55,393 bases of DNA from a bacterium 1XD21-70. Its GTDB lineage: Bacteria; Bacillota; Clostridia; Lachnospirales; Lachnospiraceae. The DNA is taken from positions 1 to 55,393 of the forward strand of contig RAYB01000035.1 in assembly GCA_003669055.1 (NCBI GenBank). The letters run 5' to 3'. This document shows, piece after piece, positions 7,689-37,811 of the stretch. Numbering within the stretch: position 1 is the first letter of the stretch; each line of letters begins with the position of its first letter. The position numbers and the translations under genes were made by a program. Under the pieces are notes generated by a model. That model was given only the letters and a program-made list of their open reading frames with translations. It was not told the DNA's origin and did not search any database.

Positions 7689-8057
7689 CTAGAATTTCAG
7701 ACCGGCTTCGCGGGCCGCATCTGCAAGTGCCTGAATCTTACCCTGGTAAATGAAACCGCCACGGTCAAACACGACCTCCCCGATTCCCTTCTCCAGCGCC
7801 CTCTTAGCGATCAGAGTTCCAACATAGCTGGCAGCAGCCACATCATTGGTATGCTCCAGTTCCTCTTTTGCTGCCTTCTCCAAGGTAGATGCCGCTACCA
7901 GAGTATTGCCGACGGAATCGTCAATAATCTGGGCATACATATGATTGTTGCTTCTGAACACAGCCAGACGCGGTCTCTCTGCAGTCCCTGCAAAGCGGTT
8001 GCGTAATCTGGTATGTTTTTTAACGCGAACTTCTTTTCTCGACTTCTTGCTAACCAT
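7689..8057 (-). CDS. rplR: 50S ribosomal protein L18
   Basis: A 122-residue 5S rRNA-binding protein. It has the basic N-terminus [20 protein letters not shown], the [24 protein letters not shown] core and the [25 protein letters not shown]-terminus. Normal length, 14 nt downstream of rplF. Confidence 0.97.
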
Positions 8058-8071
8058 TTTCGCACTCCCTC

Positions 8072-8614
8072 CTACTTCTTACCAGTCTTACCAACTTTAC
8101 GTCTGATTGTCTCATCGGCGTACTTAATGCCCTTGCCCTTATACGGCTCAGGTCTTCTCTTGTCTCTGATTTCGGCAGCATACTGGCCAACTTTTTCTTT
8201 ATCAATACCCTTCACCGTGATCTTGTTCTGACCCTCGAGGACTGTCTCCAGCCCCTCCGGATCCTCCATCTCCACCGGATGGGAATAACCCAGGTTCAGG
8301 GTTAATTTCTTGCCCTGCTTGGATGCACGGTAACCCACACCATTCACCTCCAGAACCTTCTCATAGCCGCTGGTCACACCAACTACCATGTTGTTGATCA
8401 GAGTCCTGGTAAGCCCATGAAGGGATTTCATCCTTTTCAAATCATTAGGCCTGGTTACTATGATATGTCCATCCTCTTCCTTTATAGACATCTCTACCGG
8501 CAACTCCCTCTCAAGAGTTCCCTTCGGCCCTTTTACAGTCACTTTGTTATTCTCCGCGATCGTCACGGTCACACCAGCCGGAACCGCGATTGGCATTCTT
8601 CCGATACGTGACAT
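8072..8614 (-). CDS. rplF: 50S ribosomal protein L6
   Basis: A 180-residue two-domain protein at the factor-binding region of the large subunit. It starts [15 protein letters not shown] and has the family's [11 protein letters not shown] and [17 protein letters not shown] motifs. A strong AGGAGG site precedes the ATG. It is preceded by an unusually long 209-nt spacer that contains a repeat element (see 8615-8823). Confidence 0.97.
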
Positions 8615-8823
8615 GCCATTTACCTCCTACTTAGATTTTCGGAAAAGACTCATGTCTTTTCTGTTTTCAGCCCATTCTTTTCCTGTTGTGCTTTTCCATT
8701 CCGTTCCAGCCACAACACGTCACTCCACTAAGTTCAGCTTTCGCCTTCGGCTCGGCTTCACTAAGGTTCGTGACGAACCTCGCACTAAATTCGCGCTCTG
8801 CGCGCTCATTAAGTTGCTTTTGG
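8615..8823 (-). repeat. Tandem hairpin repeat element inside the spc operon
   Basis: The spacer between rpsH and rplF contains, on the minus strand, three consecutive small hairpins: CGCGC-AGA-GCGCG, AGGTTCG-TCA-CGAACCT and an AGCC/GGCG-type stem. Each is set off by the word TTAGTG (three exact copies plus one TTAATG variant). This spacing is far longer than the 5-70 nt typical of the operon. The pattern looks like a dispersed palindromic repeat inserted in the transcript; it would fold in the mRNA and could affect processing or translation of L6. Confidence 0.6.
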
Positions 8824-9225
8824 TTACCACACAAACGCCAGTACTTCGCCGCCTACACCTAACTGACGGGCTTCCTTATCAGTTACCACGCCCTGGTTTG
8901 TAGAAATGATAGCGGTACCCAGACCGCCCAGAACCTTCGGCAGGTCTTCCTTGTTCGCGTAAACACGCAGACCCGGCTTGGAGATTCTCTTGATGCCGCT
9001 GATAATCTTCTCATTCTTGTCAGCGCCATATTTCAGGGTGATGCGGATCGTCTTGAATGCACCATCCTCGATGATGTCATATTTCTGGACATAACCCTCC
9101 TTCACCAGGATGTCGGCAATCGCCAGCTTCATCCTGGATGAGGGAACGTCTACGGTATCATGCTTGGCAGTATTAGCATTACGAATTCTTGTAAGCATAT
9201 CTGCAATGGGATCACTCATTGTCAT
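8824..9225 (-). CDS. rpsH: 30S ribosomal protein S8
   Basis: A 133-residue 16S rRNA-binding protein needed for central-domain assembly. It starts [17 protein letters not shown] and ends with the conserved GGEVLAFVW. Normal length. GGAGG lies about 11 nt before the ATG. Flanked by two elongated spacers, 191 nt upstream and 209 nt downstream. Confidence 0.97.
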
Positions 9226-9416
9226 GGTAGATAATTTCCTCCTTGTTTATTGTGCTGATTTTCACGCGGTTCTCCGCGATAGTCCGCCCTGCCCGGACAT
9301 TCCCTGCCAGATATTTCCTGCTGAAATGCCATCAGGCTGCACGGACGGCCTCATGCCCTCACTTTATGCCCTCGCCAGCCCCCGTTCCCGGCAGCCGGCC
9401 GCTAAGCCGCAAAAGG

Positions 9417-9602
9417 TCACCAGCTTGCTTTCTTAACGCCAGGAATCTGTCCCTTGTATGCCAGTTCACGGAAGCATATACGGCAAATCCCATACTTTCT
9501 CAAATATGCATGCGGACGTCCGCAGATTCTGCAGCGGTTATATTCCCTGGTGGAGAATTTCGCCGGACGCTGCTGTTTAATCTTCATTGAAGTTTTCGCC
9601 AT
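9417..9602 (-). CDS. rpsZ: 30S ribosomal protein S14, zinc-binding type Z
   Basis: A 61-residue short S14 with the two-CxxC zinc knuckle [20 protein letters not shown] at residues 23-42. This C+ form is typical of Firmicutes and depends on zinc; a zinc-independent long S14 is not in this window. It lies 15 nt after rplE; the 191-nt gap before rpsH holds GC-rich hairpins but no gene. Confidence 0.97.
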
Positions 9603-9617
9603 GGATCTTTCCTCCTG

Positions 9618-10157
9618 TTATTTAGCAAATGGCATATTGAATAATGTCAAAAGTTCACGGGCTTCTTCATCAGTCTTGGCAGTGGTAACGAAGATGATAT
9701 CCATACCTCTTACCTTGTCAACTTTATCGTATTCAATCTCCGGGAAGATCAGCTGCTCCTTGATACCCAGCGCATAGTTCCCCCTGCCGTCAAAGGCATT
9801 CGGGTTCACGCCGCGGAAGTCACGGACACGCGGCAGAGCCAGGTTGATCAGGCGGTCTGCAAACTCATACATCTTCTCGCCCCGCAGGGTAACCTTACAT
9901 CCGATCGCCATTCCCTCCCTCAGCTTGAAGTTCGCCACGGACTTCTTCGCCTTGGTGGTAACTGCCTTCTGGCCGGTGATCAGTTCCAAGTCACGGACTG
10001 CAGAATCCAGGATCTTGGCATTCTCCTTTGCCTCACCAACGCCCATGTTGATCACGATCTTATCCAGCTTCGGAACCTGCATGACGTTTTTATAACCAAA
10101 TTTTTTCATCAGAGCGTCAACCATCTCGTTCTGATACATCTCTTTTAATCGAGCCAC
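9618..10157 (-). CDS. rplE: 50S ribosomal protein L5
   Basis: A 179-residue 5S rRNA-binding protein of the central protuberance. It begins [24 protein letters not shown] and contains the conserved [15 protein letters not shown] and [20 protein letters not shown] segments and the C-terminal [15 protein letters not shown]. Normal length and position between rplX and rpsZ. Confidence 0.97.
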
Positions 10158-10180
10158 TCTTACGTTCCTCCTCTCTGCAA

Positions 10181-10480
10181 TCAGTCAATGACTTTGCCGG
10201 TTGCCTTGGCAACACGAACCTTCTTGCCGTCTTTTACCTGGAATCCGACCCTGGTGGCCTTCCCGTCAACAACCAGCATAACATTGGAAATATCCATGGG
10301 AGCTTCCTGGCGGACAATCCCGCCCTGCGGGTTGCCCGCACCTGGCTTGGAATGCTTGGTCACCATATTGCAGCCCTCGACAATCACCTTGCCCTCATGA
10401 ACGTGCAATACCTTGCCGGTCTTATCTCTGTCTTTTCCTGTGATCACCTTTACCAGGTCATCTTTCTTAATTTTATGCAC
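10181..10480 (-). CDS. rplX: 50S ribosomal protein L24
   Basis: A 99-residue assembly-initiator protein with an N-terminal KOW motif ([20 protein letters not shown]) and [20 protein letters not shown], typical of bacterial L24. 13 nt after rplN. Confidence 0.97.
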
Positions 10481-28694: not shown

Positions 28695-30011
28695 TTACAG
28701 GTAAAAACCTGCCGAAATTAAAGCTGCCGCGAAAATAGCCATGATGATCGGTATTACCAGGGACAGCACAAAACTGTTGATGTAAGCCTGCCTGTGGGTC
28801 AGCTTACTGGTGGATAGTGCCGTGATGATACCGGAACTGTGGGGCAGGGTATCCAGGCCGATCGAGGACATGGCAACCAAGCGGTGCAGCTGCGGCGCCG
28901 GAATGCCCGTGGCGATAAAACGGTCGGCAAAATTCTGCAGCGCAATGTTTAAGCCGGAGGATGCGCTTCCGCAGATGCCTGCGCAGACATTAGCAATCAG
29001 GACGATGGTAAACGGGTTATTCCCCAGCACATCCAGCCCGCCGACAATCGTCTGGAACCCGGAGACCGATGCCACAACCCCTCCGAAACCGGAAGCACAG
29101 CACACCGTAATTAACGGCGTGATTGCCTGGGGGATTGCCCCGCTGAAAAGCTTTTTCAAGTCCTGCTTCTTGGGGTTGAAGAGCAGCCATCCCACCACGC
29201 ACCCGGAGAACAGGGCTATTACTGCCGATTGCTTCAATGCATTCAGGACAAGGATTACCACCGCCATGGGAACGATGCACTGCCAGAGCGGCTTCTCATT
29301 CTCAACGTTGGCCTCCACGAGCTGTTCCTTGTCAATCACTGCCCCGGTAGGCATATAGCCCTGTCCCATTTTGTTCGTGCGCTTGCACTGCCACCAGATA
29401 TAGGCAGAGCCGAGGGCCAAGGTAATCACGGAACACAAAATGCCAAGCACCGGGGCTGACATGGTATCGGAGCCAAAGAACTCTACCGGGATCAGGTTCA
29501 GCGTCTGGGGCGAGCCAGGCATCATGCCGATGGTCACCGTCGAGGAACCTAAGGCAGAACAGGTATACAGCCACCAGGGGATATCCAATTCCTTAAACAG
29601 GGACCTGGCAATCGCCACTAAGATGAACACCACCACATATACGTTGACGCCGCCATAAGTCAGGATCAGCTGGATCAGCGGCAGTACCATTACCGCCAAA
29701 AAACGCTGCATGTTCTTATTCTCTGACTTTTTGGCAATCCTGGCCACCTTGATCGCGATTGAAGGCGCCGCCCCTGAGTCTCCCATCACCCGGGCAAACA
29801 GGGCACTGAACAGAAAAATCAGGAAATATCCCTTCATAAACCCCACTGCCTTTGGCATAAATGCTTCATTTAAAGCGACAAACGGATCTGCCCCGCCCAT
29901 GAGCGCCACTACCATGGCTGCTATCACAGAGACAAAGATCGTGTTGTAGCCAAGAAATGCCAACAGCATAAAAATCGCCAGGCCGACAAAAATCCCCAAC
30001 AAACTTATCAT
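28695..30011 (-). CDS. GntP-family organic acid permease
   Basis: A 438-residue inner-membrane transporter with about 12 hydrophobic segments and GntP-family features: the LTYGGVNVYVVVFILVAIA and LGSSTVTIGMMPGSPQTLNL regions and the C-terminal GLDTLPHSSGIITALSTS. Family members carry gluconate, other sugar acids or hydroxy-acids with protons. It is the last gene of the operon nitronate monooxygenase-like / CoA-transferase / acyl-CoA dehydrogenase / permease, so it probably imports the acid that this pathway degrades. The ATG at 30011 is preceded by a GGAAAGG/GGCGG site. Confidence 0.88.
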   Translation of the reverse strand: MISLLGIFVGLAIFMLLAFLGYNTIFVSVIAAMVVALMGGADPFVALNEAFMPKAVGFMKGYFLIFLFSALFARVMGDSGAAPSIAIKVARIAKKSENKNMQRFLAVMVLPLIQLILTYGGVNVYVVVFILVAIARSLFKELDIPWWLYTCSALGSSTVTIGMMPGSPQTLNLIPVEFFGSDTMSAPVLGILCSVITLALGSAYIWWQCKRTNKMGQGYMPTGAVIDKEQLVEANVENEKPLWQCIVPMAVVILVLNALKQSAVIALFSGCVVGWLLFNPKKQDLKKLFSGAIPQAITPLITVCCASGFGGVVASVSGFQTIVGGLDVLGNNPFTIVLIANVCAGICGSASSGLNIALQNFADRFIATGIPAPQLHRLVAMSSIGLDTLPHSSGIITALSTSKLTHRQAYINSFVLSLVIPIIMAIFAAALISAGFYL

Positions 30012-30056
30012 ATTTTACCGCCTTTCCTCATGTACTTTTTATTATGGCAGCAGGCT

Positions 30057-31196
30057 CTACCGAAGCATCGCCTTTGCAATAATCACTCTTTGGATCTCGT
30101 TGGTTCCCTCCACGATCCGGTTCACCCGTGAATCACGGTACAGCTTAGAGATCAGGTATTCGTCACACAGGCCGTAGCCGCCGAAGATCTGGACCGCATC
30201 ATCGGCGATCTTCCAGTAAGCCTCCGTGGTAAAGCATTTGGCAATCGAAGCCTCGGCCGTGCAAGGCTTGCCCTGGTCTAAGAGCATGGTGGCGTTATAC
30301 ACCAGCCCACGGGCTGCCTGGATCAGGATTTCCATATTGGCCAGCTTCTCCTGGATCATCTGCTTCGCACAGATAGGCTTGCCAAAAGCCACCCTCTCTT
30401 TTGAATACTGGACCGCCAGATCCCTGGCCAGCTGGCAGGCGCCTAAGCTGGATGCCGCCACAATCGGGCGGGATGCGGTCAGCACCTTCATGGCATTGGC
30501 AAAGCCTGTCTCCTCCGTGCCGATCAGATGGTCCAGGGGGATCTTTACATCTTCAAAAACCACCTCTGCCGTATTGGACAGGCGCATGCCGAACTTCTCA
30601 ATCTTTTTGCTGACCTGCACGCCGGGGCGGTCTTTCTCCACAATAAATGTCGCCAGCCCCCGGGAGCCCTTGGAGGGATCCACGCTGGCCACCACCAGGA
30701 ATACGCTGGCCAGGGAAGCATTGGTGATGAACATCTTTGCCCCGTTGATGACATAGGCGTCCCCCTTGCGCACTGCCGTTGTCCTGACCGCTGCGCTGTC
30801 CGACCCGGCTCCCGGCTCCGTAAGGCAGAAAGCACTTAAATACCCTTTCTGGAGCAGGCTGGAATAATACTGCTTCTGCTCCTCGTTCCCCGCCGCCATC
30901 ACGATCTTGCCGCCCATGCTTGTTACGTTAAACATGCTCATATAGGTGCTCTCCACCTTGGCTCCTTCCTCAATCAGCATCGAGGTGGTGGTGGTGTCAA
31001 GCCCCATGCCGCCATACTCCTCCGGAACCTGCATCATGTGGAACCCCATCTCAATCCCCTGCCGGATAACCTCCCGGGGATAATGGCCTTCCTTCTCCCA
31101 CTCGAGCACATGGGGCTTGATCTCTTTATTCATAAAATCCCGAACCAGTTCCACCAGGCTCTGCTGGTCTTCTGTTTGGTTAAAAAGTCCGCTCAT
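30057..31196 (-). CDS. Acyl-CoA dehydrogenase
   Basis: A 379-residue flavoenzyme of normal length for the short-chain/butyryl-CoA-type group. Motifs are FCLTEPGAGSDSAA, VINGAKMFITNA, and the catalytic Glu363 in IVEGTNEIQR. It is the second such enzyme in the window and lies in the operon with the GntP permease and the second CoA-transferase, 63 nt after the latter. Electron partner is probably the EtfAB encoded at 21872-23702. Confidence 0.95.
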   Translation of the reverse strand: MSGLFNQTEDQQSLVELVRDFMNKEIKPHVLEWEKEGHYPREVIRQGIEMGFHMMQVPEEYGGMGLDTTTTSMLIEEGAKVESTYMSMFNVTSMGGKIVMAAGNEEQKQYYSSLLQKGYLSAFCLTEPGAGSDSAAVRTTAVRKGDAYVINGAKMFITNASLASVFLVVASVDPSKGSRGLATFIVEKDRPGVQVSKKIEKFGMRLSNTAEVVFEDVKIPLDHLIGTEETGFANAMKVLTASRPIVAASSLGACQLARDLAVQYSKERVAFGKPICAKQMIQEKLANMEILIQAARGLVYNATMLLDQGKPCTAEASIAKCFTTEAYWKIADDAVQIFGGYGLCDEYLISKLYRDSRVNRIVEGTNEIQRVIIAKAMLR

Positions 31197-31259
31197 GCTA
31201 TCTTTCCTCCTGTATATTAAAATGTGCCCCCAAAGCCTCTTTATTCCTCCGGAAATGCA

Positions 31260-32465
31260 TCAGGGTTTCTGATGCGGCCAGCGTGCCTCCAGATCCGTAA
31301 TTTTCGTCTCGTCATAACCTAATTCCTTCAATATCTCCACATTCTGCTCGCCTAAAAGCGGAGCCCGGTGAAACTGTGCCGGTGTCTCTGTCATATCGCA
31401 GTTCCCTGTGCGCGTGTAGAAGGTTGGCATGCTCGGCATATTGGGCAGGGAGGGCTGCTCGGTGATCCAGCCGTTGGCCCGGTACTCCTCATCGCTCCAG
31501 ACCTGCCGCTCATTATAAACCTTGCAGCAGGGAACCCCGGCCTCGTCCAGTGCCTTTAATGCCTCATCCGTACCGGAAAAGTTCTCTGTCAGCCACTCGT
31601 TGAAGAGGGGGATCAGGGTTTTCTGGTTGCGGGCACGGTCTCCCACCTCCATATATTCCGGGTCTTCCTTCCACTCCGGCCGTTTCATCAGGTCACAGAG
31701 GCTGTCCCATGCACGTTTCCCGGCAGCCGCCATCACGATATCGCCGTCCTTGCATCGGAACACCCCGTAAGGGCACATGGTCGGGTGGTGGTTCCCCTGC
31801 CGTTCACTCATGCGGTTCAAGTTGCAGTGGATCAGAGGCGTATTGATATAGATCAGGGAGCGCAGCAGGGACACATCGATGTACTGACCTTCTCCCGTGT
31901 TGCGCCAATGGTACAGCGCAGTCATCACGCTCGCAAACATATTGAAGCCCCCCATCAGGTCCCCCAGCGGCGTACCGCTCTTTTGCGGCTCCCCTCCGGC
32001 CTCCCCTGTAAGGCTCATAATCCCTGACATGGCCTGGGCAATGATATCATAGCCCGGCCTGGAGACATACTTCCCCTTCTGCCCAAAAGTAGTCAGGGAG
32101 GCATAGACAATATCCGGCTTGATTTTACAGACACCCTCATAATCCAGGCCGAATTTTTTCATGGTTCCCGGGCGGAAATTCTCCAGGATCACATGCGTCG
32201 TCGGCAGGAGTTTTTTCACAATCTCCACTCCCTCGGGATCCTTCAGGTCCAGAGCCAGGGATTTCTTCCCCCGGTTAAACCAGCAATAGGTCAGGCTCTC
32301 GCCATCCACCATGGGAGGGAACTTCCGTCCGTCTTCTCCCCTGCCCGGCCTTTCCACCTTAATCACCTCTGCCCCGTAGTCCGCCAGCATGGCTCCTGCC
32401 GTCGGCCCGGCTGCCATGGTTGTAAAATCCAGGATCCTGATCCCCTCCAATGCCTTTTTTCCCAT
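31260..32465 (-). CDS. CaiB/BaiF family CoA-transferase (family III)
   Basis: A 401-residue class III CoA-transferase. It begins MGKKALEGIRILDFTTMAAG, with GAEVIKVERPGRGEDGR and NRGKKSLALDLKDPEG typical of formyl-CoA transferase/CaiB relatives. Asp169 in GTPLGDLMGG falls at the family catalytic aspartate position. ATG at 32465 is preceded by AAGGAG; a frame extending upstream overlaps the neighbouring gene and lacks homology. Second gene of the nitronate-monooxygenase-like to GntP operon. Confidence 0.93.
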   Translation of the reverse strand: MGKKALEGIRILDFTTMAAGPTAGAMLADYGAEVIKVERPGRGEDGRKFPPMVDGESLTYCWFNRGKKSLALDLKDPEGVEIVKKLLPTTHVILENFRPGTMKKFGLDYEGVCKIKPDIVYASLTTFGQKGKYVSRPGYDIIAQAMSGIMSLTGEAGGEPQKSGTPLGDLMGGFNMFASVMTALYHWRNTGEGQYIDVSLLRSLIYINTPLIHCNLNRMSERQGNHHPTMCPYGVFRCKDGDIVMAAAGKRAWDSLCDLMKRPEWKEDPEYMEVGDRARNQKTLIPLFNEWLTENFSGTDEALKALDEAGVPCCKVYNERQVWSDEEYRANGWITEQPSLPNMPSMPTFYTRTGNCDMTETPAQFHRAPLLGEQNVEILKELGYDETKITDLEARWPHQKP

Positions 32466-32502
32466 ATTCTTATTTCTCCTTCCTGCCATAACAGCCCTTT
32501 TT

Positions 32503-33480
32503 TCACTTGCCGTAAACGCCATTGATCCTGGCCAGCCCCTGCTCTGCCTCAGCGGCCATGCCATCGATGATTTCCTTGCAGCTTTCAATCTTATGGATCA
32601 GCCCGCAGGCCGGCCCTACCGCAAACATCCCGCCGTCCACATTGCCGTTCTCATAAGCCGCTTTCCCAAGCTTACCGGCAATCACAGCCATCAATTTCTC
32701 CAGCGTTGCCCCCTGTGCCTCCATCTCCAGGCATTTCCTCGCCGCTGCATTGTCTGCCACACGGACCATGTTGCGGATGCTCTTCTGGCAAAGCACCGTG
32801 TCATTCTCATTGGCATTGACAATCCAATCCTTGTGGTTTTGGTGGATCCAGCATTCCTTGCTGGCCACGAAGCGCGTGCCCATCACAACCCCCTCGCACC
32901 CAAGGCTTAAAGCTGCCAAAAGCCCGCGCCCGTCCGAGATGCCGCCGGCTGCCAGCACCGGCACCTTTACTTCCCTGGCCGTCTTATTCGCCAGCACAAT
33001 CGTTCCCACCCCGTCGGTATGCGGATGGCCTGCCACCTCATAGCCAGCCATTGTAATCAAGTCAGCCCCCATGCCCTCCGCTTTCTTCGCATGCTTAACG
33101 CAGGCTGCCTTATGGATCCACTTCACCTGATCCTTGTGTGCATTGAGCACATCTGCCAGTTCCTGGGGGCTCGCCCCTGCCGTTTCCACAGCCGTTACCC
33201 CCTCATCCAATATCACGGCTACCTGGTCAAAAAGTTCTTTGCCCGGACGCAGGCTTGGAATCAGCGTAATATTCACCGCAAACGGTTTTGATGTCCTTTT
33301 CTTTACTTCCTTTATCGCTGCCCTCAGATCCTCCGGATCCGGATATATCGTCACATTGATCGTGCCAAGCCCGCCGACCTCAGATACCGCGGCTGCCAGT
33401 TCCGGCACTCCAAGATGCTGCATCCCCCCCTGCATAATGGGATAGCGGATCCCCAGTAGTTCTGTCATTCGTGTCTTCAT
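32503..33480 (-). CDS. Nitronate monooxygenase-like FMN flavoprotein
   Basis: A 325-residue TIM-barrel flavoprotein of the 2-nitropropane dioxygenase/enoyl-ACP reductase II family. It shows the FMN-binding IRYPIMQGGMQHLGVPELAAA at the N-terminus, AGYEVAGHPHTDG in the middle and the phosphate-binding AAGGISDGRGLLAALSLGCEGVVMGTRF. In anaerobes such proteins are often annotated as nitronate monooxygenase, though they may act as enoyl-CoA or other reductases. First gene of a four-gene operon with CoA-transferase, dehydrogenase and permease. Confidence 0.85.
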   Translation of the reverse strand: MKTRMTELLGIRYPIMQGGMQHLGVPELAAAVSEVGGLGTINVTIYPDPEDLRAAIKEVKKRTSKPFAVNITLIPSLRPGKELFDQVAVILDEGVTAVETAGASPQELADVLNAHKDQVKWIHKAACVKHAKKAEGMGADLITMAGYEVAGHPHTDGVGTIVLANKTAREVKVPVLAAGGISDGRGLLAALSLGCEGVVMGTRFVASKECWIHQNHKDWIVNANENDTVLCQKSIRNMVRVADNAAARKCLEMEAQGATLEKLMAVIAGKLGKAAYENGNVDGGMFAVGPACGLIHKIESCKEIIDGMAAEAEQGLARINGVYGK

Positions 33481-33850: not shown

Positions 33851-35236
33851 CTAATTCCCATAATCCCACTCCGGCTCCTCCGGGCTGCTATAGGTCTTGC
33901 CTTCCACGTCCTCGTCATCCTCCTTCAGCAGTATCCCGCCGGCATTGGTCTTATATTTGACGCCGTCACGGTCTTTCACGGTCGTATTCTTGGCGATCTT
34001 CCCGGAAGAATTCACCACGTAATGCTTCACGTTATTGCCGCTCCAGATGCTAAACACCTCATAACGGCTTCCGGTGTCTGCCTTCTGGATCTTTCCCATA
34101 TAATACAGATGGTTCTCATACACCCCGGTATAGCCCTTGCCGTTGCTGCCGAAATAATACTGGACCGTACCCCCGGCCTCATCGATATTCTGCTTGCCTT
34201 TCAGCATGGAACTCTGGTTGCGGGTACCGAAATAATAGGCCGTGTATTCCATCTCATCCTTATCCGTAAATACCTTCTGGAGGCCATACACCGGCACCCC
34301 GTTATCGTCAAACAGATATGTATTGCCATTGATCTTCACCAAATCGCTGGCCTTGGCAGAACCCCTGGGCGGCCCCACCTTGGGAACACCCTTGTTGGAG
34401 AAATAGAACCACTCCACGTCGTGTTCATAATTGCTCTGCAAATTCTCCGGCGGCTCCACGGAATACCATCCCACCCGTACCTGGCCGCTGGAGTCCACAT
34501 AGCGGTAATCCCCGATGGTATCCGACTCGTCCCCGTTCACACAGGCCCAGCCGGTCTGCACGGCGCCGTCCTCCGCCAGGCTGTAATAAGTGCCGTTGAT
34601 CTTCTTTAGCTTCAATTCCTCGCCGTTATCCTTGGGGACTACTTTCTTGCCGTTGGCAGAGAAATAGTACCAGTGTTTCCCGTCATTCTCATCCTCGGAA
34701 TAAGGCCCGTAGTCATAATAATCGTCATCGTCCTGCTCATTTGGGGAAAACAAACGCTGCCAGCCGGTCACCATCACTCCGTTCTCGTCGCAGTAATACA
34801 TGTCCTCCAGGATCCAGCCCGTCTCCATCGCCCCGGTATCCCCAAAATGGTACCAGTTGTTATTGATCTTCTCCCATTTATCCTTCGCAGCCTTGCCGCT
34901 CTGGTTAAAATAATACCATTCCGACCCGTTCCCCGAGTAATCATTGCTTGCCACCTGCAGCCACTGCCCCGCATACATAATGCCGTCCGGCCCCACAAAG
35001 TAGTTGTCATCATCCACCCAGGAATTGACGGCCATCACGCCGCTGCCATTCAAATATCTCCATAATCCGTCCCCGCCCTTGCGCCATGCATTATAAAGGC
35101 GGCTGCCGGATGCATTGTAATAAACCCAGTTTCCGCCTTCCTGTGCCCAGCCTTCCGCCGCCATGGCAGAAACGCCCGCAAACCCCACGGACAAAACCGC
35201 AGCAAGAGCCAAAACCGCCAAACCACGTCTCCTCAT
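33851..35236 (-). CDS. Secreted cell-wall-binding-repeat protein
   Basis: A 461-residue exported protein. Residues 1-27 form a signal peptide (MRRRGLAVLALAAVLSVGF then AMAAEG). The rest is a string of aromatic choline-binding/CW_binding-type repeats with the W-YY-F-x-x-x-G-x-M pattern, for example WYYFNQSGKAAKDKWEKIN and WYHFGDTGAMETGW, ending in an acidic tail. No catalytic domain is seen. It likely decorates the cell wall by binding teichoic or other wall polymers. AAGGAG precedes the ATG; a candidate promoter lies at 35379-35408. Confidence 0.88.
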   Translation of the reverse strand: MRRRGLAVLALAAVLSVGFAGVSAMAAEGWAQEGGNWVYYNASGSRLYNAWRKGGDGLWRYLNGSGVMAVNSWVDDDNYFVGPDGIMYAGQWLQVASNDYSGNGSEWYYFNQSGKAAKDKWEKINNNWYHFGDTGAMETGWILEDMYYCDENGVMVTGWQRLFSPNEQDDDDYYDYGPYSEDENDGKHWYYFSANGKKVVPKDNGEELKLKKINGTYYSLAEDGAVQTGWACVNGDESDTIGDYRYVDSSGQVRVGWYSVEPPENLQSNYEHDVEWFYFSNKGVPKVGPPRGSAKASDLVKINGNTYLFDDNGVPVYGLQKVFTDKDEMEYTAYYFGTRNQSSMLKGKQNIDEAGGTVQYYFGSNGKGYTGVYENHLYYMGKIQKADTGSRYEVFSIWSGNNVKHYVVNSSGKIAKNTTVKDRDGVKYKTNAGGILLKEDDEDVEGKTYSSPEEPEWDYGN

Positions 35237-35494: not shown

Positions 35495-35523
35495 TTGAAT
35501 ATTGTCTGCACTGATGGTATACT
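35495..35523 (+). promoter_or_regulatory. Sigma-A promoter of the EIIC-chemoreceptor gene
   Basis: TTGAAT, a 17-nt spacer and TATACT, about 28 nt before the AGGGGG ribosome binding site. It is a housekeeping-type promoter; no sigma-28 (motility) consensus was seen. Confidence 0.7.
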
Positions 35524-35557
35524 CTCTTCATATGAAATTCTGTTAGGGGGAATGATC

Positions 35558-37753
35558 ATGGAAAACATCTTACAGACGGCCGACGCGCTATTCCAAAACC
35601 GTTATATTATTTCTATTAAAAAAGCATTTACCATCACGCTTCCAGTAATCATCCTAGGCTCGATAGCGTCGCTGGTCAATAATATTCCCATTAACATTGT
35701 GCAGGCAGGTCTGGCTACCCCGGCTGGGCAGGTGATCCGGGCTGTAAATAGCGCACTCTGGCTGGGCAGCACAGCCGTCATGGCAATTTTGATTGCATGG
35801 ACTTTGGGCTATTATCTTGGCAATGCCTATAAACTTAACGGTACGCTCTCAGCCCTCACAAGTGTATCCGCCTATCTGGGCATTTGCGTTACAACCCCGG
35901 ATGGCGGCATCTCGTTGAGCCGATTGGGATCTAGCGGGCTTTTTGGAGCGATTCTAATCGCGATTCTGGCCACCGAATTGTACCATGTATTTTCCTTTCT
36001 TAAAATCAATACTTCAGAGGATACAGCAGAGGAGGTGCAGCAAATGTTTGCTGCTCTTTTCCCTGTCATGCTGTCCGTTTTCTGTATTGCCCTCACAAAC
36101 GGCATGATATTGCTGGCCTCCGGCAAAGGGATTGACGAGTGGATTTATACTGCCCTGTCGTTTCTTTTTTCAACGGCCGATGGAGGCGGACTTGCTGGTA
36201 CCTTGTTTCTGGTATTCGGCATCCATATTTTCTGGTTCTTTGGTATTCATGGCGGAAATGTGATGGATAGCATCATGGCCAGCGCTTTTGGCGAGAATCT
36301 CATCCATAATACCGGCCTGTATGCCTTGAACCACAATGCCTTTGACAGGCAGCTTGCCATTATTAGCAAGGGCTTTTTGGATACTTTTGTATTTATGGGA
36401 GGAGCTGGTACATCGCTGTGCATTATTATCGCGGTATTCATGATTGCCAAGAGCCGGTATATGCGCAGCATCGCCAAAATGGGCGGTATATTCGCACTCT
36501 TCAACATGAATGAAATTGTGTTGTTCGGCTTCCCTGTAATCTTGAACCCTCTTTTGCTGATACCTTTTCTGCTTACGCCGCTTACAGTGACGCTGATTTC
36601 ATGGAGCGCCATGTCTCTTGGCCTGGTTGCCCGGGTTGTAACAGAGGTGCATTGGGCAATGCCGCCTTTGATCAGTGGATATTTGGCAACCGGCGGACAT
36701 CTGTCAGGCAGCATCCTCCAACTGATCAATATTACTGCAGGCATCCTGATTTATCTGCCATTTATTCGTTTGATGGACAAGCGGGCAGTGCAAAAGGAAT
36801 CCCTGAAGGACAACAATACGGCTCTGTTAAAACATACACTGAATACGGTGGCTGAGAAAGTCCATAACTCCACAGGTGAAATCAATGGAGAGATTACAGA
36901 TTCTTCAATCATCTTGGAAAGCATCGTCAGAGATTTGAATGTGCTCTCTGCCCAGATGCAGCAACAGATGCAGCTCCTGCATACCTGTGACGAATATATG
37001 CGAACCATTGATACCTCGATAGGCAGCACAGATACCAGCATAAAAATCGTCTTGCAGAATATGGAAAAAACAAACACGCTATCCATGACAGGCGCCCAGA
37101 ACATGCAGCAAACGATGCAGGAGATGGAGGAAACTTTCTCCTCCACACAAAAAACCAATGAACAGGCCAGCCGGCTTCATCTGCGCTGTGAGCAGATTGA
37201 GGGAATCTTAAAAAGAATTGAGGACATATCCATGCAGACGGCGCTTTCACTCAATGCCTCGATTGAGGCGGCGCACGCCGGTGTTCATGGCAAAGAGTTT
37301 TCCGTGGTTGCCGCCAACATAAAAGATCTGTCGGAAGCAACGGCAAAGGCCGTTTCCGATATTCAGGGTTTGCTACAGGGGATGAAAGCGGATACATCTG
37401 ATATGATTGAGCGATCTGAGGTCAGTTTAAGGCAGGCAGAAACCGGACGGCAGCAGATGATTGGCACCAACCAGCTGTTTGGCGAAATTGTGCAGAACAT
37501 TAACAACATTCAAGCACAGTGTCATACAGTTCTTAAACACAGCAATGAGGTGATCGGTGAATTGCAGCAAATCAATGAACAAATCCGGGCAACCAGCCAT
37601 TTCTTTGTAGAAATGGTATCCCATATGTCTAAAGTGGCTGAACAGGTTCACGATAGGTCGGATGAATCCAAAGAGATGATGCAAAAGCTGCGGAAGCTAA
37701 ATGTGGAAACAAGCATTTTGACAGTAAGTGCGCTTGAGAACCTTGAAAAATAG
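35558..37753 (+). CDS. PTS EIIC sugar permease fused to a chemoreceptor signalling domain
   Basis: A 731-residue membrane protein with two modules in one uninterrupted frame. Residues 1 to about 425 are a complete PTS EIIC of the lactose/cellobiose/chitobiose group: about ten membrane segments, WFFGIHGGN with His231, and FNMNEIVLFGFPVILNP with Glu319. These fit the His and Glu that bind sugar in the ChbC structure. Residues about 435-731 are an all-helical coiled-coil hairpin like the methyl-accepting chemotaxis signalling domain, with its tip at ISMQTALSLNASIEAAHAG (about 555-575). There is no HAMP, PAS or EIIA/EIIB domain. The tip keeps Glu570 but has His573 and Val576 where receptors have Arg and Glu. 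ATG 35558 is 8 nt from AGGGGG. Likely a sugar sensor, possibly still a transporter. Confidence 0.9.
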   Translation: MENILQTADALFQNRYIISIKKAFTITLPVIILGSIASLVNNIPINIVQAGLATPAGQVIRAVNSALWLGSTAVMAILIAWTLGYYLGNAYKLNGTLSALTSVSAYLGICVTTPDGGISLSRLGSSGLFGAILIAILATELYHVFSFLKINTSEDTAEEVQQMFAALFPVMLSVFCIALTNGMILLASGKGIDEWIYTALSFLFSTADGGGLAGTLFLVFGIHIFWFFGIHGGNVMDSIMASAFGENLIHNTGLYALNHNAFDRQLAIISKGFLDTFVFMGGAGTSLCIIIAVFMIAKSRYMRSIAKMGGIFALFNMNEIVLFGFPVILNPLLLIPFLLTPLTVTLISWSAMSLGLVARVVTEVHWAMPPLISGYLATGGHLSGSILQLINITAGILIYLPFIRLMDKRAVQKESLKDNNTALLKHTLNTVAEKVHNSTGEINGEITDSSIILESIVRDLNVLSAQMQQQMQLLHTCDEYMRTIDTSIGSTDTSIKIVLQNMEKTNTLSMTGAQNMQQTMQEMEETFSSTQKTNEQASRLHLRCEQIEGILKRIEDISMQTALSLNASIEAAHAGVHGKEFSVVAANIKDLSEATAKAVSDIQGLLQGMKADTSDMIERSEVSLRQAETGRQQMIGTNQLFGEIVQNINNIQAQCHTVLKHSNEVIGELQQINEQIRATSHFFVEMVSHMSKVAEQVHDRSDESKEMMQKLRKLNVETSILTVSALENLEK

Positions 37754-37782
37754 GGTACTAAGCATCCCCCGCTTTAAAGTTC

Positions 37783-37811
37783 TTGACGAACGCCCCGCCC
37801 ACTTCTATAAT
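37783..37811 (+). promoter_or_regulatory. Sigma-A promoter of the methyltransferase gene
   Basis: TTGACG, a 17-nt spacer and a perfect TATAAT, starting 29 nt after the EIIC-chemoreceptor stop. It shows that the methyltransferase gene has its own promoter. Confidence 0.85.

Follow-up and report, generated by a model that had tools for sequence, protein, structure and literature searches.

A gene of a Lachnospiraceae gut bacterium joins, in one unbroken frame, the EIIC domain of a PTS sugar permease to the signalling hairpin of a chemoreceptor (MCP). The reading that we favour, with moderate confidence, is that its product is a travelling sugar sensor of EIIC type with an MCP rod, in which the rod's output to chemotaxis is eroding or now addresses a different partner. 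The gene lies within what we call the window, the whole stretch of 55,393 nucleotides that was analysed (contig RAYB01000035.1 of bacterium 1XD21-70, assembly GCA_003669055.1). Under the favoured reading, the EIIC domain would be the membrane sugar sensor, joined to a chemoreceptor hairpin where related EIICs carry an EAL domain. In the ancestor, binding of sugar close to His231 and Glu319 would have moved the EIIC dimer, and this movement would have been signalled along the hairpin to CheA-CheW. The gene is now transferred, as a unit of one gene, among Lachnospiraceae that are only distantly related; in the copies that exist today the EIIC is firmly selected and the hairpin loosely, with the kinase-contact tip close to neutral. 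Because of this unequal selection, what maintains today's copies is probably that the EIIC, with its attached coiled coil, senses or binds sugar, and they probably lack the usual control of CheA.

One frame joins a permease domain to a chemoreceptor hairpin

The gene and its parts are listed in Table 1; the mechanical list of open reading frames opens the frame further upstream, with a TTG at 35495. Pfam calls both domains above their cut-offs: PTS_EIIC at residues 22-341 (E 4.5e-33; 115.1 bits vs. 30.7) and MCPsignal at residues 510-679 (E 1.3e-22; 80.9 bits vs. 34.6). HAMP, EIIA and EIIB were absent from the eight Pfam families listed for the protein at E up to 1. Thus, the preliminary description, which had been made by reading the DNA alone and had proposed this single-frame architecture lacking those three domains, was correct on both points. 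It had also given the EIIC about 425 residues; the domain is indeed N-terminal, but its match ends near residue 414, a small difference. The NCBIfam model for lactose/cellobiose IIC (TIGR00410) spans residues 8-414 (272.2 vs. a cut-off of 236), the sugar-specific NCBIfam models remain below their own cut-offs, and the solved chain nearest by sequence is the cellobiose-specific IIC 3qnq_A (E 7.6e-54, residues 5-414). Both ends of the EIIC are presumably cytoplasmic, by homology, and the hairpin should then be able to sit where chemoreceptor hairpins do. An AlphaFold2 model of the fusion, built from eight rows, had a mean pLDDT of 40.8, and no conclusion rests on it.

Table 1. Features of the fusion gene and its surroundings, in window coordinates
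Feature	Position	Strand	Remarks
EIIC-MCP fusion gene, 731 aa	35558..37753	+	ATG at 35558, stop ends at 37753; unbroken frame
EIIC domain, residues 8-414, lactose/cellobiose family	35579..36799	+	TIGR00410; groups in the tree with signalling-fused EIICs
His231 codon (IHGGN)	36248..36250	+	82-row EIIC alignment
Glu319 codon (NMNE)	36512..36514	+	82-row EIIC alignment; next residue Ile
Hairpin N-terminal arm, residues 411-544	36788..37189	+	Adjoins EIIC directly, no HAMP match; omega 0.51
Hairpin tip region, residues 545-605	37190..37372	+	Degraded, one codon short; omega 0.76, not different from 1
Hairpin C-terminal arm, residues 606-731	37373..37750	+	omega 0.66
Likely ribosome-binding site AGGGGG	35545..35550	+	Direct reading; AGG-rich at the same place in other copies
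Weak promoter-like site TTGAAT-17-TATACT	35495..35523	+	About the level of shuffled sequence
Homology unit of the carriers (gene, ~28 bases before it, 1 base after its stop)	35530..37754	+	blastn

A promoter directly before the window gene was considered and rejected, as the candidate is no better than shuffles give: its score was matched by 6.7% of 300 shuffles, and the region held six promoter-like sites where 5.0 were expected. Among nine copies, only those at loci L042 and L049 have a promoter-like site reached by fewer than 5% of simple shuffles. No EIIA or EIIB was recognised by eye among the listed frames flanking the fusion gene. By the same kind of reading, the divergent neighbour (33851-35236, minus strand) is a secreted protein whose repeats resemble the choline-binding or cell-wall-binding type, and beyond it a cluster at 28695-33480, also on the minus strand, resembles a transporter, an acyl-CoA dehydrogenase, a CoA-transferase and a nitronate monooxygenase-like protein. 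On the other side, a promoter-like TTGACG-17-TATAAT (37783-37811; 11/12) stands 30 bases past the fusion stop; the gene that follows it is, by eye, a methyltransferase-like frame.

The fusion is genuine and thinly spread

Scanning one genome per species, we found nine loci, eight of which are the fusion gene. Six further genomes (L042 to L047) carry the full open frame at 84-88% identity, among them the named strains Acetatifactor muris DSM 23669, Mediterraneibacter agrestimuris DSM 111629 and Schaedlerella arabinosiphila DSM 106076; strains such as these we take to be of mouse-gut origin. The copy in a MAG (L048; locus 8001-10198) is broken by a frameshift and an in-frame stop, the one at L049 is cut off by a contig end, and at L050 the EIIC part alone is matched. 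An assembly join or frameshift at 36780-36900, against which the preliminary description had cautioned, was rejected because the junction recurs, open, in those six other genomes: the gene is genuine and not an assembly error.

A DNA search of 397 family genomes returned the fusion in two, the window's own and G708; the latter has two partial matches, which lie at a contig end or close to one and are not part of the alignments. Carriers thus number up to 10. The comparisons use the seven intact copies, namely the window's and L042 to L047; L022 and the copy in genome G310 are the same DNA as L043. The gene is patchy, with a full-length match in 1/299 family genomes and 2/24 genus genomes, and each of nine genomes holds one full or partial copy (two further short matches in the copy-count search belong to another MCP). 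No second kind of EIIC-MCP appeared among the best candidates per genome of 391 class and 398 phylum genomes; the family, class and phylum samples comprise ~300-400 genomes each with the best two or three candidates per genome scored, so that distant fusions of this kind may be missed.

The EIIC domain groups with EIICs fused to signalling outputs

In an EIIC tree of 82 rows, all 57 stand-alone EIICs lie on one side of a 100/99 branch (the tree being unrooted), and the other side holds seven MCP-fused rows, 17 EAL-fused rows and one truncated row. A 54-row tree gave the same split, 33 stand-alone vs. 20 fused. The stand-alone rows are those most similar to the window EIIC in our samples rather than a random draw, and the EAL label rests on Pfam for nine rows and on a sequence motif for the other eight; all nine EIIC-EAL proteins scanned have both domains above cut-off. 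Left out of the trees were L022, L036 (the same place as L003) and the short L032 and L040; L103 belongs to neither group. This grouping with EIIC-EAL, apart from stand-alone EIICs, supports the idea of the preliminary description that the sugar channel is itself the sensing domain. The tree hinted that EIIC-MCP is nested inside EIIC-EAL, but the AU test gave this no support and does not separate nesting from sisterhood (p-AU 0.44); since the tree also has no outgroup, a single origin of the fused EIICs is unproven. By plain match score, the kinship of the fusion EIIC looks mixed. Among the best candidates per genome, its top match of another kind is, in the class sample, an EIIC-EAL protein (L084; E 1.7e-68, 38% identity) and, in the phylum sample, a stand-alone EIIC (L149; E 4.3e-69, 35%), slightly above L084.

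Residues presumed to matter for sugar and residues typical of stand-alone EIICs have fared differently. His231 is H in 7/7 MCP-fused, 17/17 EAL-fused and 49/57 stand-alone EIICs, and Glu319 is E in all 82 rows. Both stand where the preliminary description had placed them, and both are kept in all 24 rows fused to MCP or EAL; their role in sugar binding we assume from work on ChbC. Four prolines, in contrast, are conserved in stand-alone EIICs and almost wholly lost from the fused ones: P157 (54/57 stand-alone, 0/17 EAL-fused, 0/7 MCP-fused), P203 (53/57, 1/17, 0/7), P320, directly after Glu319 (55/57, 1/17, 0/7), and P365, directly before Trp366 (51/57, 0/17, 0/7). One EAL-fused row, L093, has kept both P203 and P320. 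The T-E-P triplet also occurs in five of six examined PTS_EIIC loci of other types in the window's genome (L001, L002, L004, L005, L006 and L008, which had no EIIC match by tblastn and were used for this motif only; the count leaves out one further PTS_EIIC match of that genome), and the loss of the proline therefore looks derived. Further, the loss speaks against the word "complete" that the preliminary description had applied to the permease. With His231 and Glu319 kept and the stand-alone prolines gone, the EIIC looks like a sensor, and we infer that fused EIICs have probably kept sugar binding and lost transport.

Window residues 22, 157, 203, 320 and 365 together tell most stand-alone from signalling-fused EIICs, the presumed sugar residues being unchanged, and this set could be used to mark sensory EIICs in databases. 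EIIC-EAL proteins recur in the class and phylum samples, and one such fusion of 710 aa is found in another species of the window's genus (L024, G314:C2, 1432-3561).

The gene moves between genomes as a single-gene unit

By blastn, homology between the window and the eight other loci begins at 35525-35543, 15-33 bases before the gene, and in the seven loci that reach its end it stops at 37754-37755, 1-2 bases past the stop codon. Within the available flanks (up to 8 kb, short downstream in L042 and absent downstream in L049), no flanking gene is common to the window (20001-55393) and the eight other loci; three isolated tblastx matches of 26-31 residues were seen between the window flanks and L048. 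Some common flank occurs between L042 and L043 and between L045 and both L046 and L047, and a stretch of DNA 5-8 kb from the gene is common to L043 and L047. In all 15 pairs of six genomes, fusion EIIC DNA is 87-98% identical vs. 72-84% for rpoB, and dS is 0.06-0.45 for the fusion EIIC vs. at least 1.35 or saturated for rpoB. The protein identity of the closest pair, G000-G310, runs the other way (rpoB 96.5%, fusion EIIC 92.0%), as expected because rpoB is so constrained. These pairs, like the omega estimates given below, exclude the broken L048 and the partial L049, and rpoB had no match in the L046 genome. Between the best CheA match of each other carrier and the CheA of the window's genome, identity is 46-89%. 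Because the surroundings of the gene differ and its EIIC DNA is more alike than rpoB, we conclude that it moves horizontally, and these comparisons indicate that it has been passed between distantly related Lachnospiraceae of the gut as a unit of one gene.

As to a vehicle, carriage by phage was rejected (93 pattern matches in viral_contigs, none of which encodes a relative), as was carriage by plasmid (81 plasmid records with a match, none covering 80% of the query), and no bounding repeats or transposon ends were found around the unit in the three copies scanned. Short shared remnants (L042 ~10202-10271, L043 ~10400-10468) lie on both sides of the gene at differing distances, the downstream one with a GTTACC..GGTAAC palindrome, and may hint at the manner in which the unit is inserted. 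L044 (6674-7900) and L049 (3608-4834) have a neighbouring gene in common at 81.6% DNA identity, which differs in distance and orientation relative to the fusion.

The hairpin is loosely held and its tip is degraded

In ordinary MCPs, CheA and CheW are contacted by the hairpin tip. Of its 48 columns in 35 such MCPs from the carrier genomes, 36 are at least 90% fixed, and each protein keeps 31-36 of these residues, the columns having been defined on the same 35 proteins. These 35 are higher-scoring MCPs; nine genomes have 94 MCPsignal matches, a total that includes fusions and fragments; the ten other MCPs of the window's genome comprise eight of the 35, plus L078 and L079. The seven intact fusions, by comparison, keep 15-20 of the 36 residues (20 in the window copy) and differ among themselves in 22 of these columns. 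All eight tips (those of the seven intact fusions and of L048) have another residue in place of the N of QTN, five of the seven intact fusions have H for the R of EAAR, and in the window copy the tip lacks one residue. The most ordinary tip among the copies seen is that of the broken L048 (23/36), which suggests that the ancestral tip was closer to the ordinary form. In two lower-scoring MCPs of the window's genome, 25 and 28 of the 36 are retained, and odd tips may be tolerated in MCPs.

Codon likelihood with transition bias gave an omega of 0.21 for the EIIC, vs. the values for the three hairpin segments in Table 1. With transition bias fixed at its free estimate, the EIIC (2dlnL 196) and the two arms taken together (16.0) reject an omega of 1, whereas the tip does not (1.1). 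The transition-bias model shows no significant difference between tip and arms (2dlnL 1.2), so the relaxation concerns the hairpin as a whole and not just its tip; a neutral tip between conserved arms, as suggested by our first, simpler codon model, was withdrawn. Between G000 and G310, the tip omega of three ordinary MCP pairs is 0.00-0.03 vs. 0.74 for the fusion, and over 16 ordinary MCP pairs it is 0.00-0.10 in the 12 that were computable. No stop codon occurs in the seven intact copies, where neutrality would give about 12 in the hairpin half and about 13 in the EIIC, a count biased by these copies having been chosen because they were intact. Taken together, the substitution patterns indicate an EIIC that is firmly selected and a hairpin that is loosely held throughout. 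The tip looks worn, and the fusion may no longer steer swimming.

Alternative explanations

The cells that carry the gene are equipped for chemotaxis, and thus a working sugar chemoreceptor, in which the EIIC binds sugar and thereby controls CheA by way of the hairpin, has to be considered. The window's genome has three CheW-domain matches (one in a 711-aa frame that by eye is CheA), ten other MCPsignal matches and, by eye, CheB, CheR and flagellin; a CheA match was found in 9/9 carrier genomes searched; the hairpin frame has been maintained open; and MCPsignal is still above its Pfam cut-off in the window, L044 and further fusion copies. However, the tips argue against it, both by the number of conserved residues lost relative to ordinary MCPs and by the changes in QTN and EAAR, and we consider a working receptor unlikely. 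The preliminary description had envisaged a one-protein link between sugar and behaviour, and against a link that works today stand a tip degraded differently in each fusion, its near-neutral evolution and the missing residue of the window copy; as a whole, that interpretation is partly supported. A permease that is still active in transport or facilitation and merely trails an inert coiled coil is doubtful to a somewhat greater degree. The EIIC is the strongly selected half and has kept residues 231 and 319, as this would predict, but it has lost the prolines conserved in stand-alone EIICs, just as EIIC-EAL proteins have, the protein is without an EIIA or EIIB domain, and the frame of the tail is kept open.

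We give very little weight to a decaying gene, whose function is being lost and which survives for a time by transfer. The frameshift and stop of L048 and the fast evolution of the hairpin are what decay would produce; the selection on the EIIC and the lack of stops, with the bias noted for that count, are not. Thus, a pseudogene was rejected for the seven intact copies on omega and the absence of stops, and is true of L048 as assembled. A broader proposal would make such EIICs a separate class of non-transporting sensors that swap outputs, with the chemoreceptor rod one output taken, the gene mobile on its own and the signal passing by a route other than CheA; we hold it to be unlikely. What we favour is the more limited reading of a travelling EIIC-type sensor with an eroding or redirected chemotaxis output. 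Its interest is that the fusion of an EIIC to a rod, together with the EAL-wired relatives, suggests that EIIC can sense without transport; the PTS of E. coli reports sugar to chemotaxis by phosphate flow. Further, the recent spread across genera and the unequal selection on the two halves would offer a view of a receptor changing its output.

Comparison with known systems

EIIC in c-di-GMP enzymes has already been published: one article gives PTS_EIIC as a rare domain of these enzymes and terms it a phosphoreceiver (PMC8846402). Another names the two domains, EIIC and MCP, in separate proteins (PMC1698476). In the literature that we searched, by title and the start of the abstract and with subscription journals mostly outside the scope, no report of an EIIC-MCP fusion was found. 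Among the known systems closest to it, the PTS_EIIC-EAL proteins share with the fusion an N-terminal EIIC of the same kind, mostly the same lost prolines and an output placed after the EIIC. They differ in that the output is an EAL (c-di-GMP phosphodiesterase) domain where the fusion has an MCP hairpin, and in occurring here and there in many families across the class and phylum samples, whereas the MCP form is a tight set with recent transfers.

Lactose/cellobiose EIIC transporters such as 3qnq_A resemble the fusion over the whole domain, in their match to TIGR00410 and in His231 and Glu319; the fusion differs from them in its four lost prolines, its signalling rod and its separate position in the tree. 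Like ordinary MCPs, the fusion has an MCPsignal domain above the curated cut-off, but unlike them it has a degraded tip and lacks both a HAMP match and a separate ligand domain; a HAMP between membrane and hairpin is usual in MCPs, though not universal. Transporter-like sensors with fused outputs are known in the Amt-type histidine kinases and in the SLC5-type kinase CbrA. As in the fusion, a transporter fold has there been reused as input, although both the fold and the output differ.
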